Shown here piece after piece: positions 29,396-40,940 of a DNA stretch of 63,310 nucleotides (position 1 is its first letter; every line of letters starts with the position of its first letter). The translations under genes and the position numbers were made by a program. This stretch comes from Pseudomonadota bacterium (lineage in GTDB: Bacteria > Pseudomonadota > Alphaproteobacteria > Rhizobiales > JAKPQE01). The stretch spans positions 1-63,310 of the forward strand of contig JAKPQE010000052.1 of the NCBI GenBank assembly GCA_029572955.1, written 5' to 3'. The notes under the pieces are model-generated. The model saw only the letters and a list, made by a program, of their open reading frames with translations. It made no database searches and was not told the origin of the DNA.

Positions 29396-29520
29396 CCCGT
29401 CCTGAATTCATTCCGCGCGAGACTGCCGGGGCGCCCGTCGCGAGGCGCCGCGTCGATCGTTTTCGTCAAAGGGGAGAGGTGCCGTCCGGCGTCCGGGCGC
29501 GCAAGGCGAGGTGGCCCCGG

Positions 29521-29617
29521 AAAAGAAAAGGGGCCGCACTCTTTCGAGGCGGCCCAAGTCTAGGGAGGAAACGCCCAAGGAGGGCAGCGATATCGCGAAC
29601 CAGTCGCCATATCGCAC
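29521..29617 (-). ncRNA. Candidate small RNA with anti-Shine-Dalgarno motifs (AbcR/alpha-r15-like)
   Basis: About 97 nt read on the minus strand. Three hairpins can be drawn. The first is an 11-bp stem with one G-G mismatch (GCGATAT...ATATCGC extended by GCGA/UCGC). The second is GCCC-UCCUU-GGGC (29585-29573), which presents UCCUU in its loop. The third is an intrinsic terminator GGGCCGC-CUC-GAAA-GAG-U-GCGGCCC followed by a U-tract. The linker between hairpins two and three holds UUUCCUCCCUAG, a second strong anti-SD sequence. The start is set 7 bases after a good -10. Size, layout and exposed CUCC motifs resemble AbcR/alpha-r15 (or alpha-r14) sRNAs of Rhizobiales, which repress transporter mRNAs at their ribosome binding sites. 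The family name is inference. Confidence 0.65.
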
Positions 29618-29893: not shown

Positions 29894-31192
29894 TCAATGC
29901 GCCGGGGGCTTGCCAGCCATCGGGTCGCGGGAGCGCCCGTAAACGATGAGGCCGATCGTCAGCATGCCGAAGATCGTCAGGAACACCGCCTGATAGGCCT
30001 CGATCGGCAGGCCGATTCCGGCGCCGCCGGACGACGCGAAGCGGCCGGCGATGAAGCCGGTGACGGACTGCATGATGAAGACGCCGCCCATCGTGCCGAC
30101 ATTCATCATGGTGATGCCGCGGCCGACGAAGCGGCGCGAGAACAGCGAGCGCCCGTGCGCGATGAGCACCGGCGAGACGCCGGAGACGAAGCCGAACAGC
30201 GGGAACCACAGGGTGAGCAGCCACAGCGGCGGCTTTCCGACGAGACCGAGCAGGCCGATCATCGCGGCGGTCAGGAAGACGCCGAACATCACCGGTCCCT
30301 TGCGCGAGCCGATGATGCGGTCGGCCGGACCCCAGAGGAACACGCCGACGATCTGGCCCGCCGCGAGCAGCAGGAGGTAATGGCCGCGGCCGGCGAGGTC
30401 GAGGCCGTAGATGTCGGTGAGATAGGGGCCGCCCCACAGGCCGAGCATCGAGGCGAACCCCGAATAGAGAATGAGATGGAGGCCGAACACCGGCCAGAAC
30501 GACGGCGCGCGGGCGACGTCGAGAAGGCCCATCATGCCGGCCCGGAAGGTTTCGTGCGGCCGTTCCGCCGGCGGCGAGCCGGGCGGGTCGTCGCGCACGG
30601 CAAGGAGCACGAGGAGGCCGGCGAGTGCCGAAAGCACGGCAAAGCCGACGAAGGCGGTGCGCCAGCCGAGCGTCGCGGCGACGCCGGCGAGCGGCCCGGT
30701 GGCGAGCAGCGTGCCGAAACTGCCGAAGCCGAGCTGGATGCCGGTCAGCGTCGAGAAGCGCTCCGGCGCGAACCAGCGCGAAAAGAGCGTGAGCGGCGCC
30801 ATGAAGAAGCTCGAGCAGCCGAGACCCATGACGATCCGGCCGGCGACGAGGCTGGAAAGGCTGGAGCCCCAGGCGAATATCACGCAGCCGGCGACGGCAA
30901 GGCCGATCGAGGCGAGCATCGCCGCCTTCGGTCCCCAGCGGTCGAGCGCGACGCCGAGCGGAAACTGCGCCGCCGCGAAGGAGAAGAAGAAGGCGCCGGA
31001 GAGCAGGCTGATGCCTTCCGGGGAAAGGCCGAGTTCGGCCGAAAGGTTCGGGGCGATGACGCCGACCGAATTCCGGAGGAACTGGCTGACCACATAGGTG
31101 AGGCAGACCGCACCGACCAGCAGGACGACCCGCAGTGTCCAGCCCGAGACGAAGGCGGGCTCGGCCTCGGTGGCGGTCTGCGGGTCTTGCAT
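29894..31192 (-). CDS. MFS transporter
   Basis: 432 residues from the ATG at 31192 (ribosome binding site GAGGATC). Twelve hydrophobic segments are seen. The family signature after helix 2 is FPLGVALDRWGPKAAM (A-like motif G-x-x-x-D-R-x-G). The sequence opens with VVSQFLRNSVGVIAPNLSAELGLSPEGISLLSG, typical of the organic-acid/phthalate and nitrate-like MFS branches. A longer in-frame extension upstream is Arg/Pro-rich and rejected. It is divergent from bufA, with a 268-base gap that may hold both promoters. The substrate is unknown. Confidence 0.9.
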   Translation of the reverse strand: MQDPQTATEAEPAFVSGWTLRVVLLVGAVCLTYVVSQFLRNSVGVIAPNLSAELGLSPEGISLLSGAFFFSFAAAQFPLGVALDRWGPKAAMLASIGLAVAGCVIFAWGSSLSSLVAGRIVMGLGCSSFFMAPLTLFSRWFAPERFSTLTGIQLGFGSFGTLLATGPLAGVAATLGWRTAFVGFAVLSALAGLLVLLAVRDDPPGSPPAERPHETFRAGMMGLLDVARAPSFWPVFGLHLILYSGFASMLGLWGGPYLTDIYGLDLAGRGHYLLLLAAGQIVGVFLWGPADRIIGSRKGPVMFGVFLTAAMIGLLGLVGKPPLWLLTLWFPLFGFVSGVSPVLIAHGRSLFSRRFVGRGITMMNVGTMGGVFIMQSVTGFIAGRFASSGGAGIGLPIEAYQAVFLTIFGMLTIGLIVYGRSRDPMAGKPPAH

Positions 31193-31460: not shown

Positions 31461-31757
31461 ATGCCGAGCCTCAAGACACCGCTTTCCGCCGCCCTCATCG
31501 CCGCCGCCGTCGTCGGCGCCGCTGCCGCGACGATCCCCTCCGCCCACGCCGCCGAGAAGGAGAAGTGCTTCGGCATCGCCCTTTCCGGCCAGAACGACTG
31601 CGCCGCCGGCCCCGGCACCACCTGCGCCGGCACCTCGACGCGCGACTATCAGGGCAACGCCTGGAAGCTCGTCCCGGCCGGCACCTGCACGACGATCGAG
31701 CTGCCCGAGGGCCGCATGGGCTCGCTCGAGCCGCTGACCCGCGATCTGCCGGGTTGA
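31461..31757 (+). CDS. bufA: BufA-type bufferin precursor (DUF2282)
   Basis: 98 residues. A signal peptide (about 1-30, ending AHAA) is followed by a short mature peptide with four cysteines in [16 protein letters not shown]...TCAGT...AGTCTT. This is the DUF2282 pattern now called bufferin: a ribosomally made, exported peptide whose cysteines are converted by the MNIO enzyme BufB and which sequesters copper. Ribosome binding site AAGGAAGAG; the ATG at 31461 is clear. It is the first gene of a tight four-gene operon with bufB, bufC and bufD. Bufferin 1 proteins normally have this length and these four cysteines. Confidence 0.9.
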
Positions 31758-31783
31758 TGTCCCTGAAGCCGGAAGGAAACGCC

Positions 31784-32710
31784 ATGTCCCGCACCACCCC
31801 CCGCAGAACGGCGTCTTCCGGCGCCTTGCGTCCGGTCCCGGCTCGCGCCGGGATCGGGCTCAAGGGTCCCCATGTCGCCGAGATCGTCGCGACCGCTCCC
31901 GACCTCGGCTTCTTCGAGGTCCATGCCGAGAACTACATGGGCGCCGGCGGCCCGCCGCACCGCTGGCTCGAGGCCGTCGCCGCACGCTATGCCCTCTCCG
32001 TCCACGGCGTCGGCATGAACATCGGCGCGCCGGGTCCGCTCGACCGGGCCCACCTCCAGCGCCTGAAGACCGTCGTCGAGCGCTACCGCCCCGGCCTCGT
32101 TTCCGAGCACCTCGCCTGGTCGAGCCACGGCGAGGCCTTCTACAACGACCTTCTGCCGCTGCCGCTGAACGAGACGACGCTCTGCGCCGTCACCGACCAT
32201 GTGCGCGAAGTCGAGGACGTGCTCGGCCGCCGGATCCTCATCGAGAACCCCTCGACCTATGTCGCCTTCGACGCGACGGCGATGCCCGAGGTCGAGTTCC
32301 TCGGCCGCCTCGCCGAGGCGACCGGCTGCGGCCTTCTCCTCGACGTCAACAACGCTTACGTCTCGGCCACCAATCACGGCTTCGACGCCGACGACTACAT
32401 CGACACGTTCCCGGTCGAGCATGTCGGCGAGATCCACATCGCCGGCCACGCGCCCGACATCGACGATGCCGGCCGGCCGCTGCTCGTCGATGCCCATGAC
32501 CGGGCCGTCGCCGAGGCGGTCTGGACGCTGCTCGGCCGCACGCTCGCCCGCACCGGTCCGCTCCCCGTCCTGATCGAGCGCGACAACGACGTGCCGCCGC
32601 TCGCCGCGCTGCTCGCCGAGGCCGCCCGCGCCGACCTCGCCATCGTCACCGCCACCGCCGGTCGTCCGGCCTTGCAGGGAGGGGCCGAGGATGCGCGACT
32701 ATTCGGCTGA
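31784..32710 (+). CDS. bufB: BufB, MNIO-type (DUF692) peptide-modifying oxidase
   Basis: 308 residues, TIM-barrel family of multinuclear non-heme iron-dependent oxidases. The expected metal-binding segments are present: FFEVHAENYMG, SVHGVGMNIG, LVSEHLAW, ILIENPSTY, LLLDVNNAYV and GEIHIAGHAPD. BufB modifies cysteines of the precursor BufA together with BufC. The ATG at 31784 has a GGAAGGAA site; an in-frame ATG at 31757 overlaps the bufA stop but has no ribosome binding site. The end overlaps bufC by 20 bases. Confidence 0.94.
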   Translation: MSRTTPRRTASSGALRPVPARAGIGLKGPHVAEIVATAPDLGFFEVHAENYMGAGGPPHRWLEAVAARYALSVHGVGMNIGAPGPLDRAHLQRLKTVVERYRPGLVSEHLAWSSHGEAFYNDLLPLPLNETTLCAVTDHVREVEDVLGRRILIENPSTYVAFDATAMPEVEFLGRLAEATGCGLLLDVNNAYVSATNHGFDADDYIDTFPVEHVGEIHIAGHAPDIDDAGRPLLVDAHDRAVAEAVWTLLGRTLARTGPLPVLIERDNDVPPLAALLAEAARADLAIVTATAGRPALQGGAEDARLFG

Positions 32711-33431
32711 CTTTGCCGTTCCCCTGCTCGACCCCGGCGCCGCCGTCCCGCCCGGGGTCGTCGGCGGCACCCGGCGTTTCGGCGTCTATCGCAACAATGT
32801 CGTCGTCGGCCTCGTCGAGGCGCTGGCCGACGCCTATCCGATCGTGCGCACCCTCGTCGGCGAGGAATTCTTCCGCGCCGCCGCCCGCCTCTTCGTCCTC
32901 GACAATCCGCCGAAATCTCCGGTGATGCTCGATTACGGCGTCGGCTTTGCCGAATTCCTCGAGGATTTCGAGCCGGCAGAGAGGCTTACCTATCTCGCCG
33001 ACGTTGCCCGCATCGAGCGCGCGGCGCTCGATGCCTATCACGCCGCCGATGCCGAGCCGCTGGCGATCGCGACGCTCGCCGCGATCGATCCCGATCGCCT
33101 CGAAGCCGTCCGCCTCGTGCCCCATCCGGCGGCGCGGGTGCTCGCGACCCGCCATGGCGCCGCCGCCGTCTGGCGCGCCCACACCGACCCCGGTTCTGCC
33201 GGACCGGTCCGCGCCGAGGGCGATGCCGATCTCGTCATCGTCCGGCCCGACGCCGACGTCGCCGCTCATGTCCTGCCGGCCGGCGCGCTGATCCTCTTTG
33301 CCATGCTGGCCGAAGGAAACACCCTCGGCATGGCGGCCGCGGCGGCGGATGAAGTCGCCGGCTTCGATCTTCAGGCGGCGCTCGTCGCACTCTTTGCCGC
33401 CGGCGCCTTCGCCGCCATTGCCGAAACCTGA
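32691..33431 (+). CDS. bufC: BufC, DUF2063 partner protein
   Basis: 246 residues. The N-terminal half is the DNA-binding-like DUF2063 fold (RRFGVYRNNVVVGLVEALADAYPIVRTLVGEEFF...ARLFV), with ARIERAALDAYHA in the middle. In bufferin and related MNIO systems this protein partners BufB and brings the precursor to the active site. It overlaps bufB by 20 bases. The C-terminus is Ala-rich. Confidence 0.93.
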   Translation: MRDYSADFAVPLLDPGAAVPPGVVGGTRRFGVYRNNVVVGLVEALADAYPIVRTLVGEEFFRAAARLFVLDNPPKSPVMLDYGVGFAEFLEDFEPAERLTYLADVARIERAALDAYHAADAEPLAIATLAAIDPDRLEAVRLVPHPAARVLATRHGAAAVWRAHTDPGSAGPVRAEGDADLVIVRPDADVAAHVLPAGALILFAMLAEGNTLGMAAAAADEVAGFDLQAALVALFAAGAFAAIAET

Positions 33432-33461
33432 GACGACCAACCCGGGGAGGGGGAGACGAAG

Positions 33462-33968
33462 ATGACTGAACGGATGGAGGGATTGCCGGCCCTGGTGGGC
33501 CGCGCGGTCGATCTTGTCGGCCGGCTCGAAGGGCTCATCGCCCGCATGCCGGCCTCGCTCGCGAGTCTGGCGCTGCGCGTCGCCGTGGCGATGCCCTTCT
33601 TCAAGTCGGGCCTCACCAAATGGGACGGCTTCCTCGTCCTGTCGGACTCGGCCCCCTATCTTTTCGCCGAGGTATTCCGCCTGCATATCCTCGGCGCCGA
33701 ATATCCCTTCCCGGCGCCCGGCCTCGTCGCGCTGCTCTCCGGCCTCGGCGAGACCATCCTGCCGGTGCTCCTCGTCCTCGGCCTCGGCACGCGCTTCGCC
33801 GCTCTCGGTCTGCTCGCCATGACGGCGGTGATCCAGCTCACCGTGCCGGACGGCTGGGAGACCTATCATCTGCCCTGGGCCGCGATGCTCACCGGCATTC
33901 TGGTGATCGGGCCCGGCCGGATCGCGCTCGACGCGGTGATCGCCAGGGTCTTCGCCAGGGCGGCCTGA
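33462..33968 (+). CDS. bufD: BufD, DoxX family membrane protein
   Basis: 168 residues with four predicted transmembrane helices. DoxX features are SLALRVAVAMPFFKSGLTKWDGF, the AEYPFPAPGLVALLSGLGETILPVLLVLG block and LPWAAMLTGILVIGPGRI. DoxX proteins close the bufferin operon and may support export or redox steps. Ribosome binding site GGGGAGGGGGAG. It is 30 bases after bufC and convergent with the aldolase gene. Confidence 0.9.
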   Translation: MTERMEGLPALVGRAVDLVGRLEGLIARMPASLASLALRVAVAMPFFKSGLTKWDGFLVLSDSAPYLFAEVFRLHILGAEYPFPAPGLVALLSGLGETILPVLLVLGLGTRFAALGLLAMTAVIQLTVPDGWETYHLPWAAMLTGILVIGPGRIALDAVIARVFARAA

Positions 33969-33970
33969 CC

Positions 33971-35017
33971 TCAGACGAGCGCGGCGAAGCGGTCGATTTC
34001 CTCGGCCGTCGTCGCAAAGCTCGTCACCAGCCGCACCAGCAATTCCCCCGGACCCGGCCGCTCCTGCGGCGCGACGATCGACGGCGTCCAGACGTGGTAC
34101 TGGGCGCCGGCCGCTCTGAGGCGCGCATCCGCCGCCTCGGAGATGATCGCGAAAACCTCGTTCGCCTGCGGCGCCAAGGCGAGGCGGGCCGAACCCGAGG
34201 CCGCAAGGGCCGCGGCGAGCCGCGCCGCCATCCCGTTGGCGTGGCCGGCGAGCGCCAGCCAGTGGTCGTCGTCGAGCCAGGCGAGGAACTGCGCCGCCAT
34301 GAAGCGCTGCTTGGAGACGAGCTGGCCGGCGCGCTTTCTGAGATAGCCGAGCGTCTCGGCCCGTTCCGGCCCGAAGAGCACGATCGCCTCGGCGAACATC
34401 GCGCCGTTCTTCGTCGCCCCGAGCGACAGCGCCTCGACGCCGGCCCGCCAGGTGATCTCGGCCGGGGAGACGCCGAGGCTCGCGACCGCATTGGCGAAAC
34501 GCGAACCGTCCATGTGGAGGGCAAGGCGCCGCGGCCGGCACGCTTCGGCGAGCGCCGCGATCTCGGCCGGCGAATAGACCGTCCCGGCCTCGCTCGACTG
34601 GGTGATCGACAGCAGGGTCGGCTGCACCTGGTGGACGAAGCCCTCGGCGAATTCGCCGAGCGCCTCGGTCACGGCCCGTGGCGCCACCTTGCCCTCGGAT
34701 CCTGCAAGCCCGACGAGCTTTGCCCCGGAATAGAATTCCGGCGCGCCGCATTCGTCGACCATCAGGTGGCTGTGTTCGTGGCAGAGGACCGCGCCCCAGG
34801 GCGGCGTCATCGCCGCGACCGAGAGGGCGTTCGCCGCCGTGCCGGTGGTGACGAGGAAGACGGCGACCTCGTGCTCGAAGACCTCGGCGAGGCGCCCTTC
34901 CAGCGCGCGCGTCAGATCGTCGGCGCCATAGGACGGCGCCGTGCCGGAATTGGCGGCTGCCACCGCCGCCATGATCTTCGGCGAGACGCCCGCCGCATTG
35001 TCGCTACCGAACCGCAT
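33971..35017 (-). CDS. Threonine aldolase family protein (PLP-dependent)
   Basis: 348 residues from the ATG at 35017. The beta-eliminating lyase/threonine aldolase family is recognised by FGSDNAAGVSPKI, VTTGTAANALSV, HEHSHLMVDECGAPE, HMDGSRFANAV and the PLP-lysine segment LSLGATKNGAMFAEA. The enzyme cleaves L-threonine (or low-specificity beta-hydroxy amino acids) to glycine and acetaldehyde. The 12-residue upstream extension from a TTG is rejected. It ends two bases from the bufD stop, tail to tail. Confidence 0.93.
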   Translation of the reverse strand: MRFGSDNAAGVSPKIMAAVAAANSGTAPSYGADDLTRALEGRLAEVFEHEVAVFLVTTGTAANALSVAAMTPPWGAVLCHEHSHLMVDECGAPEFYSGAKLVGLAGSEGKVAPRAVTEALGEFAEGFVHQVQPTLLSITQSSEAGTVYSPAEIAALAEACRPRRLALHMDGSRFANAVASLGVSPAEITWRAGVEALSLGATKNGAMFAEAIVLFGPERAETLGYLRKRAGQLVSKQRFMAAQFLAWLDDDHWLALAGHANGMAARLAAALAASGSARLALAPQANEVFAIISEAADARLRAAGAQYHVWTPSIVAPQERPGPGELLVRLVTSFATTAEEIDRFAALV

Positions 35018-35087
35018 GGCCGTTCTTGTCGCGGGAAACGGCCGGCGCGGCAAGGAAAATCCGGCGCCGCGGACCTCTTCACCAACA

Positions 35088-35804: not shown

Positions 35805-35927
35805 CCGGGAAGGGAGCCTTGGCCGAAGTCTGGCCGATGGCTACCCTTGCACCCGGCGATTCTGCAGCTTGACAAGCGCCGGCGCCCTTGTTCCTATTTC
35901 GTTCGCAATCGGGGCGCGAGGCGCGGC

Positions 35928-37555
35928 ATGAACAGGCTCTATTACGGCGACAATCTCGACATCCTGCGCCGGCACATCGCCGACGAGTCGGTCGATCTCG
36001 TCTATCTCGACCCGCCGTTCAACTCCAACGCCACCTACAACGTGCTCTTCAAGGCGCCGGACGGTCACGAATCCCAGGCGCAGATCGAGGCCTTCGACGA
36101 TACCTGGCATTGGACCGAGAGCGCCGAGGATGCCTACTGGCAGGTGCTGAAGGGGCCGAACACCGACGCCGCCCGCATGCTGGAAGCCATGCGCGGCTTT
36201 CTCGGCGAGAACGACATGATGGCCTATCTCGCCATGATGGCCATCCGCCTGATCGAACTGCACCGCGTCTTGAAGCCGACGGGCAGCCTCTATCTCCACT
36301 GCGATCCGACCGCCAGCCACTATCTCAAGATCTTGTTGGATGCGGTGTTTGGGAAGGAGCGGTTCCTGAACGAGATAACGTGGAAGCGTCGTGTTGGTAT
36401 GAGTAGTGCTGTCCATTCATCTAATAGATTTGGCATTCAAACTGATACAATTCTCTTTTACTCAAAGCAAAATTGCCATGTTTTTAATCCGCAATACAAT
36501 ATGAATGACGGTGAATATCAGAAATATATTGAAAGCAGGTTCACTCTGCGGGGCGATGATGGAAGGTTGTTTCAGGCGACCAGTCTCGTCAATCCTGCTC
36601 CTCGGCCAAATCTGAAGTATGAATACAAAGGATATGCGCCTCCACCGAATGGTTGGATGATATCCCGCGAAAAGATGGAGCAATGGGACCGAGAGGGGCG
36701 AATCTACTTTCCAAAAGATAAGAGCGGTAGACTTCGGCGGAAAAGCTACGCCGACGAACTCCGGGGTATGCCGATCCAGAATCTCTGGCTGGACATACCA
36801 GAGATCAACTCCCAAGCACAGGAACGCCTCGGCTACCCACCCAGAAGCCCGTCGCCCTGCTGGAACGCATCGTCGCCGCCTCGTCCAATCCCGGCGATCT
36901 CGTCCTCGATCCCTTCTGCGGCTGCGGCACCACAGTGCACGCCGCCGAAAAGCTCGGCCGGCGCTGGATCGGTATCGACGTGACGCACCTCGCCATCTCG
37001 CTGATCGAGCGCCGGCTGCGCGAGGCCTTTCCCGGCATTTCCTTCGAGACCGTCGGGGTGCCGCGCGACTTCGATGCCGCCAGCGACCTCGCCGATCGCG
37101 ACAAGCACGAATTCGAGAAATGGGCGATTGCCCTCATTCCCGACGCCCAGCCCTTCCGTGGCGGCCGGAAGGGCGCCGACACCGGCATCGACGGCGTCGT
37201 CTACCTGCGCACCGGCAAGGGCCAGACCGACAAGGCCATTATCGAGGTCAAGGGTGGCGGCGTCTCGGTCGATCAGATCCACAAGCTGAAAAGCGTCATC
37301 GAACGCGAGAAGGCGCTGGTCGGCCTGTTCATCACCCTGAAGGAGCCGACCAAGCCGATGATCGCCGAGGCTGCGAGCGCCGGCTTTGCCGAGATCGACA
37401 TGGGAACAGGTACCGCGACCTTCCCGCGCATCCAGATACTCACCATCGACGGTCTGCTCTCGGGCAGGGAGCATCCGCGTCTGCCGATCATCGATTCGAC
37501 CGCTTTCCGTCGCGCGCCCAAGGAAAAGAAACAGAATCAGGGCGAGCTGTTCTGA
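35928..37555 (+). pseudogene. Frameshifted DNA methyltransferase with C-terminal nuclease-like domain
   Basis: Two reading frames together form one protein of about 542 residues. The first (35928 to about 36834) gives MNRLYYGDNLDILRR, the DPPFNSNATYN catalytic motif and a variable recognition region. The second resumes with TQKPVALLERI, the cofactor motif DPFCGCGTT, and a C-terminal domain with GADTGIDGVVYL and IIEVKGG that looks like a PD-(D/E)xK nuclease core. At about 36836 one base is missing compared with the expected Gly-Tyr-Pro-Thr-Gln-Lys-Pro reading. The length 1628 is one short of a multiple of three. The recognition segment is AT-rich (31% GC by my count over 36421-36540, against 62% at 35941-36000), so it was probably swapped in. 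A sequencing error cannot be excluded. Confidence 0.85.
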
Positions 37556-38417: not shown

Positions 38418-39663
38418 CCTTGCCGGCTGGCAGATCGAGGCGCTGCTGCACGACTGGGAAATCTGGGCGCGGCCCGACCAGCTCGCCCCCGCCGGCGACT
38501 GGACGACCTGGCTGGTGCTCGGCGGCCGTGGCGCCGGCAAGACGCGGACCGGCGCCGAGTGGCTGCGCGCCCGCGTTTTCGGCCGCGCCGGTCCGCCGGC
38601 AGGACGCATCGCCCTCGTCGGCGAGACCTTCGCCGATGTCCGCGAGGTGATGATCGAGGGCGTCTCGGGCCTGCTCGCCATTCACCCGAAGGACGAGCGG
38701 CCGCAATGGGAGGTCTCGCGCCGTCGCCTCGTCTGGCCGAACGGCGCGATCGCCCAGGCTTTCTCGGCCGAGGACCCGGAAGGCCTGCGCGGCCCCCAGT
38801 TCGATGCCGCCTGGGCCGACGAGCTCGCCAAGTGGCGCTATGCCGACGCCGCCTGGGACATGCTGCAATTCGCACTCCGCCTCGGCGAGGAGCCGCGCCA
38901 GGTGGTGACGACGACCCCGCGCCCGATCCCGCTCCTGCGCCGGCTGATCGAAGATCCGCGCGCCGTCGTCAGCCACGCGACGACGCGCATGAACGCCGTC
39001 AATCTCGCCCCGGGCTTCCTCGATGCCGTCGTCGGCCGCTATGCCGGCACGCGGCTCGGCCGTCAGGAACTCGAAGGGGCGCTCATCGAGGACCGGCCCG
39101 ACGCGCTCTGGCGCCGGCCTGCCATCGAGGCGGCCCGCGTCGAGGCGGCGCCGGGGCTCGCCCGCGTCGTCGTCGCCGTCGACCCGCCCGCCTCGCACCG
39201 CAAGGGTGCCGACGCCTGCGGCATCGTCTGCGCCGGCATTGCCGAGGACGGCACCGGCTACGTGCTGAAGGACGGCTCGCTCGAGGGCGCCCGTCCCGGC
39301 GAATGGGCGGCCCGGGCGATCGCCCTCTGGCGCCGCTACGAGGCCGACGCGCTCGTCGCCGAGGTCAATCAGGGCGGCGACATGGTCGCCGCCGTCATCG
39401 CCGAGGTCGATGCCGGCGTGCCGGTGACCTCGGTGCGCGCGACCCGCGGCAAGTGGCTGCGGGCCGAGCCGGTCGCCGCGCTCTACGAACAGGGCCGGGT
39501 GCGCCATGTCGGCGCCTTTCCCGAGCTCGAGGACGAAATGTGCGATTTCGGTCCGAACGGCCTGTCGAGCGGGCGCAGCCCGGACCGCCTCGACGCCCTC
39601 GTCTGGGCGCTCTCGGCACTGATGCTGAGAAGCGGCGCCGAGCCGAAGGTGAGGAAGCTCTGA
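38332..39663 (+). CDS. GTA g2, large terminase subunit
   Basis: 443 residues, GTG start at 38332 with GGAG upstream. The Walker A is LGGRGAGKTRTGAEW (about residues 62-76). The region QFDAAWADELAKW holds the Walker B acidic pair, and RQVVTTTPRP is the coupling motif. The RNase H-like nuclease domain carries VVVAVDPPASHRKGADACG. It packages host DNA headfully into GTA particles. Confidence 0.95.
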   Translation: MSANASEPNLRAALLASAGRPGIEAILSDLAGWQIEALLHDWEIWARPDQLAPAGDWTTWLVLGGRGAGKTRTGAEWLRARVFGRAGPPAGRIALVGETFADVREVMIEGVSGLLAIHPKDERPQWEVSRRRLVWPNGAIAQAFSAEDPEGLRGPQFDAAWADELAKWRYADAAWDMLQFALRLGEEPRQVVTTTPRPIPLLRRLIEDPRAVVSHATTRMNAVNLAPGFLDAVVGRYAGTRLGRQELEGALIEDRPDALWRRPAIEAARVEAAPGLARVVVAVDPPASHRKGADACGIVCAGIAEDGTGYVLKDGSLEGARPGEWAARAIALWRRYEADALVAEVNQGGDMVAAVIAEVDAGVPVTSVRATRGKWLRAEPVAALYEQGRVRHVGAFPELEDEMCDFGPNGLSSGRSPDRLDALVWALSALMLRSGAEPKVRKL

Positions 39664-39695
39664 AGTCTCGTCCGCAACAGGGGACGTCGTCGAAA

Positions 39696-40940
39696 ATGAT
39701 CGAGAACATGCTGAACTGGCTGGCCGCCGCCGGCCGACCCAACGCCGTCGCGCCCGCCGAGGCCAAGGCCTCGCGCAGCGCCGGCGTCATCGCGCTTGCC
39801 AATGTCGGTCGCCCGGTCTGGACGCCGCGCGACTATGCGGCGCTCGCCCGCGAGGGCTATGCGAAGAATCCGGTGGTCTACCGCTCGGTGCGGATGATCG
39901 CCGAGGCGGTCGCCTCGCTGCCCTGGCTCGTCTACGAGGGCAGGGCCGAGCGCGAGCGCCACGCGCTCCTCGACGTCCTTGCCCGGCCCAATCCGCGCGA
40001 GGACGGCGCCTCCTTCCTCGAGGCGGTCGCCGGCCATCTCCTCGTTGCCGGCAATGCCTATGTCGAGGCGGTCGCCGGCGGCTCGGGCGTTGCCGAACTC
40101 TATGCGCTGCGGCCCGACCGCATGAAGCTGGTGCCCGGTGCCGACGGCTGGCCGGAGGCCTACGAATACACGGTGGCGAGCCGCACCGTGCGCTACGAGA
40201 TGGGCGAGGGGGCGTTGCCGCCGATCCTCCACCTGACGCTCTTCCACCCGCTCGACGATCACTACGGCTTTGCCCCGATCGAGGCGGCGGCGACGAGCCT
40301 CGACGTGCACAACGCCGCCGCCGCCTGGAACAAGGCGCTGCTCGACAATTCGGCGCGCCCCTCCGGCGCCCTCGTCTATGCCGCCAAGGACGGTGCCAAC
40401 CTCACCGAGGACCAGTTCGAGCGGCTGAAGCTCGAACTCGAAGCCGGCTTCCAGGGCGCCGCCAATGCCGGCCGGCCGCTGCTCCTCGAAGGCGGGCTCG
40501 ACTGGAAGACCATCGCGCTGTCGCCGCACGACATGGATTTCATCGAGCTGAAGAACGCCGCGGCACGCGAGATCGCGCTCGCCTTCGGCGTGCCGCCGAT
40601 GCTGCTCGGCATTCCCGGCGACAACACCTATTCGAACTATCGCGAGGCGAACCGCGCCTTCTGGCTCGGCACCGTGCAGCCGCTGGCAAGGAAACTCGCC
40701 GCCGCGCTGACCGCCTGGCTCGCCCCGGCCTTCGGCACGAGCCTGCGGCTCGACTTCGATTTCGACGCCAGCGAAGCGGCGAGCGCCGAGCGCGAGGCCC
40801 TCTGGGCCCGCGTCGCCGGCGCCGACTTCCTGACCCTCAACGAGAAGCGCGCGGCGATCGGTTACGGCCCGCTCGCCGGCGGCGACGCCCCGCCGCCGGC
40901 CTTCGCCGAGGCCCTCGCCGCAGGTCTGCCGCCGTCGTGA
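39696..40940 (+). CDS. GTA g3, HK97-type portal protein
   Basis: 414 residues from the ATG at 39696 (an ATG at 39708 is an alternative; both ribosome binding sites are weak). Portal signatures are AREGYAKNPVVYRSVRMIAEAVASLPW, HPLDDHYGFAPIEAA, the NGxxPSG-like NSARPSGAL, and the LGIPGDNTYSNYREANRAFW block. It forms the dodecameric DNA channel at the capsid vertex. Confidence 0.95.
   Translation: MIENMLNWLAAAGRPNAVAPAEAKASRSAGVIALANVGRPVWTPRDYAALAREGYAKNPVVYRSVRMIAEAVASLPWLVYEGRAERERHALLDVLARPNPREDGASFLEAVAGHLLVAGNAYVEAVAGGSGVAELYALRPDRMKLVPGADGWPEAYEYTVASRTVRYEMGEGALPPILHLTLFHPLDDHYGFAPIEAAATSLDVHNAAAAWNKALLDNSARPSGALVYAAKDGANLTEDQFERLKLELEAGFQGAANAGRPLLLEGGLDWKTIALSPHDMDFIELKNAAAREIALAFGVPPMLLGIPGDNTYSNYREANRAFWLGTVQPLARKLAAALTAWLAPAFGTSLRLDFDFDASEAASAEREALWARVAGADFLTLNEKRAAIGYGPLAGGDAPPPAFAEALAAGLPPS

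Follow-up and report, generated by a model that had tools for sequence, protein, structure and literature searches.

Buf1-type bufferin operons have been catalogued in their thousands, and one of them, that of Caulobacter, has been characterised. In the product of this Caulobacter vibrioides operon (buf1, CC3254-CC3257; bufferin 1) BufB and BufC convert the two central cysteines to 5-thiooxazoles ahead of Sec export, and a disulphide joins the outer pair; the thiooxazoles chelate copper in the periplasm and the system helps growth in copper (PMC12452194), a structure that is backed by further work (PMC13097082). Transcription of Caulobacter buf1 is driven by sigmaF, which is held by NrsF, from a GTAACC-N16-CGAA box (PMC3511200). 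Sinorhizobium meliloti has a Buf1-type set, SMb20530-20527, described as orthologues of CC3254-CC3257 and belonging to RpoE7/EcfR7 (ECF16), and RpoE7 reads a similar box, ATGTAACATCGC...GCGAAT (PMC6180224). The HvfABC/oxazolin and fontiphorin systems (EGKCG captophorins) share the MNIO with its DUF2063 partner, the signal peptide, the 5-thiooxazoles and the link to copper (PMC13097082), but their precursors are Lys-Cys repeat peptides whereas that of the locus described here is a DUF2282 protein.

The window (the whole 63,310-nt stretch of DNA that was analysed) agrees with Caulobacter buf1 in all four gene families and in their order, including a four-cysteine DUF2282 precursor with a signal peptide; its features are collected in Table 1. 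The DUF2282, MbnB_TglH_ChrH, DUF2063 and DoxX matches are each above the Pfam gathering score, and the match of four genes is confirmed as far beyond chance. The genes are spaced by 26 nt (bufA/bufB), -20 nt (bufB/bufC) and 30 nt (bufC/bufD), the overlap taking in the bufB stop, and purine-rich stretches resembling ribosome-binding sites can be read by eye ahead of the starts. A first-pass annotation had described four tightly spaced genes, bufA-B-C-D, with bufB and bufC overlapping, and frames, gaps and Pfam families all agree with it. Across 109 relatives the order A-B-C is kept together with the four cysteines, and here bufABC is followed by the doxX gene. Judged on its sequence, the segment 31461-33968 is a complete, intact and ordinary Buf1 (DUF2282) bufferin operon. 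The nearest relative checked has a BufB 62% identical to this one, which makes the earlier description of the operon as a fresh member of its family a fair one. Our overall reading, in which we place strong confidence, is that the window carries a Buf1 operon predicted to make a copper chelator modified by BufB and BufC, and transcribed outside the sigmaF/NrsF system, probably by way of the upstream element listed in Table 1.

Table 1. Features of the buf1 locus and its immediate surroundings (coordinates are those of the window)
Feature	Coordinates	Strand	Description
MFS gene, divergent	29894-31192	-	upstream of bufA, 268-bp intergenic space
Candidate operator or alternative promoter element TTGATTTCCACTTGAA	31336-31351	+	16 bp, ends ~110 nt before the bufA ATG
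bufA	31461-31757	+	98 aa; Buf1/DUF2282 bufferin precursor; PF10048 E=1.4e-25
bufB	31784-32710	+	308 aa; MNIO (former DUF692) bufferin maturase; PF05114 E=2.6e-100
bufC	32691-33431	+	246 aa; DUF2063 + RRE partner, PME-type 1; PF09836 E=4.1e-22
bufD	33462-33968	+	168 aa; DoxX-family membrane protein; PF07681 E=3.6e-15
PLP enzyme, threonine-aldolase type	33971-35053	-	PF01212; convergent, 2 bp past the bufD stop

BufA matches PF10048 (DUF2282) with 89.5 bits against a cut-off of 22.4, and its DUF2282 core, a 42-residue stretch, is typical. A hydrophobic segment begins at residue 8, and residues 1-30, read by eye, form a Sec-type signal peptide with the cleavage site AHA|AE. The annotation had proposed a signal-bearing precursor with four cysteines in the standard pattern, and it holds good: Cys36, Cys47, Cys55 and Cys76 follow the signal and are invariant in all 109 aligned BufA sequences (the window and 108 relatives). 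The structure model of BufA is of low confidence (pLDDT 69.7) and was left out of the argument. The C-terminal tail (residues 77-98, positions 31689-31754) carries the pattern ELP.GR.GSL..L.RDLP, which is kept in many relatives; Rhizobium BufA has a short MGKLEP-type tail in its place.

The MNIO, DUF2063-partner and DoxX identities given by the annotation are upheld by the Pfam matches and, for BufB, by the NCBIfam bufferin maturase family NF050167 (364.9 bits, cut-off 310). BufB also matches the solved MNIOs 3BWW (E=1.1e-40), TglH and MbnB. Its residues H74, H109, E154, N190, H218, D236, H238, E265 and D267 are among those invariant in 87 sequences, a set that takes in the second copy from the window genome. 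N190, D236 and H238 correspond to HvfB N175, D242 and H244 in an alignment through 3BWW, with the HvfB numbering carried over by motif, and each of these three HvfB residues is essential to thiooxazole formation (PMC13419390). The operon does not belong with the methanobactin (MbnABC) systems: the MbnB profile gives 56.8 bits against a cut-off of 325, and the partner is a DUF2063 protein. That partner, BufC, scores 78.7 bits against PF09836. The only strong PDB matches of its AlphaFold2 model (pLDDT 90.9, from a 36-sequence alignment) are chain A of the TglHI holoenzyme (8hci, 8hi7) and NGO1945 (3dee), the latter being the DUF2063 plus RRE prototype (PMC12452194). As modelled, BufC is a DUF2063 plus RRE-type partner with a fold like that of MNIO partner proteins. 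BufD has four hydrophobic segments, and its match to the HvfX family is below cut-off.

The window genome carries a Buf2 (6-Cys) operon as well (L001/L119; G000:C164, ~78-80 kb), whose BufA2 scores 98.7 bits (cut-off 60) and whose BufB scores 376.7 bits (cut-off 310). Like the operon in the window, it pairs a signal-bearing, cysteine-rich precursor with an MNIO, but the precursor is of another family and the two BufB proteins are only ~36% identical (105/295). Within the Buf2 locus (L119) there is no counterpart of the element that lies upstream of bufA in the window.

How would the Buf1 system work? BufA would be synthesised with its Sec signal peptide, and a cytoplasmic BufB-BufC complex would oxidise Cys47 and Cys55 to 5-thiooxazoles before Sec export. 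BufA would then be exported and cleaved after Ala30, a disulphide would form between Cys36 and Cys76, and the mature peptide would chelate excess copper in the periplasm, with BufD (DoxX) as a putative accessory membrane protein. Homology to Caulobacter Buf1 makes the predicted thiooxazole chemistry and copper role well supported; we infer the disulphide and the periplasmic site of BufA. Our confidence that the system would work as in Caulobacter is high because all of the expected sequence features are present.

What, then, drives bufA? Caulobacter buf1 uses sigmaF and NrsF, but in the window the best match to the GTAACC-N16-CGAA box upstream of bufA has three mismatches, as in most shuffled sequence, and the bufA intergenic region has no sigmaF-box site when up to two mismatches are allowed. 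The Sinorhizobium RpoE7 promoter is absent from the window. A search of the window genome, which is 98.7% complete, gave no NrsF match above cut-off; a lone NrsF-like match was rejected, being below cut-off, containing a stop, and lying in a stretch that reads by eye as HflK/HflC- and DegP-like. The sigma box (at most one mismatch) occurs in 38 of the 85 buf1 upstream regions, which comprise 84 relatives and the window, against 1.2 expected from shuffles. With neither a sigma box nor NrsF found, transcription of the window's buf1 is judged to lie outside the sigmaF (ECF16)/NrsF system. The annotation was right to assign no inducer, and the lack of NrsF in the genome and of a sigmaF-type box in the promoter goes beyond what it had noticed. 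As to the separate upstream promoter region that it had proposed, a conserved element is indeed present there, but a consensus scan of the bufA/MFS intergenic space found no sigma-70-type promoter.

This element is the only match to TTGATTTCCACTTGAA in the window at up to two mismatches (0.10 expected), and exact TTGATTTCCNNTTGA occurs at a single site in the window genome, upstream of bufA. Related blocks begin ~80-135 nt before the buf1 start codon in about 20 loci besides the window, with the consensus GTcACag.cgTTTGATTTCC.ATT.A, and among the genomes searched 11 of 12 exact TTTGATTTCCNATTNA sites are at bufA. Its conservation is what suggests a regulatory role for the element, and bufA in the window is probably controlled through it by a factor encoded elsewhere. 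A wider regulon was considered and rejected: sites with one mismatch are scattered in other genomes, many of them within coding frames. One such site in the window genome, C2:5088 (TTGAATTCCGGTTGA; L129), has a sensor kinase on one side and a response regulator on the other, and is probably due to chance. The matches listed by a literature search with the motif string were all unrelated papers. Three loci (L089, L103, L112) have variant blocks upstream of bufA, for example TGTGATTTGCAAGTGA, which are possibly diverged versions of the element.

In Roseibium, Breoghania and several more families of the order, the gene after bufD, in the same orientation, is a threonine-aldolase-like one (lta; co-directional in L005-L009, L012, L013, L022-L024, L026, L028, L033, L055, L058 and L114-L118). 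It was rejected as a fifth operon gene because it adjoins gltB (glutamate synthase) also where DUF2282 is lacking and because it is convergent in the window. Since gltB and the aldolase-type gene are adjacent in DUF2282-less genomes too (G007, G011, G021, G055 and others), the gap between them looks like a site of buf1 gain or loss, and an ancestral gltB-lta neighbourhood likely gained or lost buf1. The window genome has gltB on contig C28, away from buf1. The block is absent from the four buf1-less gltB-lta regions checked (L120, L121, L122, L126), and the idea that the element is part of a gltB promoter was rejected on that ground.

In one sampled set NrsF is found in none of 16 genomes with a TTTGATTTCC-type block and in all 28 with the sigma box, counts in which many genomes are related ones of Roseibium/Labrenzia, some genomes enter both sets, and the block was defined on some of the sequences later counted. 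In a set spread over families of the order, all five sigma-box genomes have NrsF (G002, G005, G006, G035, G043), and the block genomes G001, G013, G016, G041 and G060 (at most two mismatches) are without it. Another block genome, G058, does have NrsF, ~1 kb from one of its four DUF2282 genes (3571938); its block-bearing DUF2282 copy is a different one, at 4401912, and not near NrsF. Among 26 relatives with neither element an NrsF-family protein is present in some and absent from others, and the two classes therefore leave part of the buf1 operons unaccounted for. On balance we favour the view that buf1 operons include a second regulatory class, so far undescribed, that is switched through a TTTGATTTCC-N-ATT-like element ~80-135 nt upstream in Hyphomicrobiales lineages that lack NrsF, to which the window would belong. 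The operon type itself is already known, and the new part would be this NrsF-independent promoter class, for which the evidence is conservation. If the class is real, the peptide system would have lost its link to sigmaF and come under another sensor, and the factor that reads the element would reveal the cell's cue for bufferin production.

The element might have no regulatory function and be a relic of descent from an ancestral gltB-buf-lta region. Many relatives do have buf1 between gltB and the threonine-aldolase-like gene, so that the locus is vertically inherited in part of the order, and descent may explain some of the element's conservation, since its occurrences fall mostly within a single bacterial order. 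We nevertheless find the relic explanation rather doubtful: conservation in the upstream regions sampled is confined to the block and a few columns next to it, the remainder having drifted, the four buf1-less gltB-lta regions checked are without the block, and in the window it stays next to bufA even though gltB lies on a different contig.

Two further alternatives concern the operon as a whole. A modified bufferin could be made whose main job is to meet some other stress, be it gold, chromate, cadmium or oxidative/chlorine stress. In Cupriavidus, Buf1-type (gig) operons respond to gold, and the operon of Caulobacter does so to chromate and cadmium (PMC12452194, PMC3511200); moreover, the window promoter is unlike the studied class, and therefore its inducer may differ. 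Yet the sole well-studied Buf1 product binds copper and aids growth in copper (PMC12452194), and the precursor, MNIO and partner in the window belong to the families of that copper-binding system, so a main role other than copper seems unlikely to us. That the window genome carries the operon in a silent or decaying state is far more improbable still, given four open frames, intact cysteines and BufB residues, and tight gene spacing.

Turning to the remaining neighbours, the annotation was right that bufA diverges from an MFS transporter gene across a real intergenic space, but such a gene occurs near buf1 in only one of 85 loci, and there it is not divergent. The transporter was accordingly rejected as a part of the system and is a chance neighbour. 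Positions 29516-29592 (- strand) match the Rfam mmgR/suhB small RNA with 68.4 bits (gathering 41). On the other side of the operon, at 35844-37552 (+ strand), an N6_N4_Mtase DNA methylase frame overlaps at its end a second frame, whose endonuclease domain is of the Mrr_cat type. The match to the profile breaks off half-way, as if a frameshift had split a fused restriction-modification gene. Farther along, a phage portal frame (38559-40940, + strand; PF04860 E=3.4e-91), with other sequence ahead of the portal match in the same frame, seems to open a prophage or gene-transfer-agent cluster.
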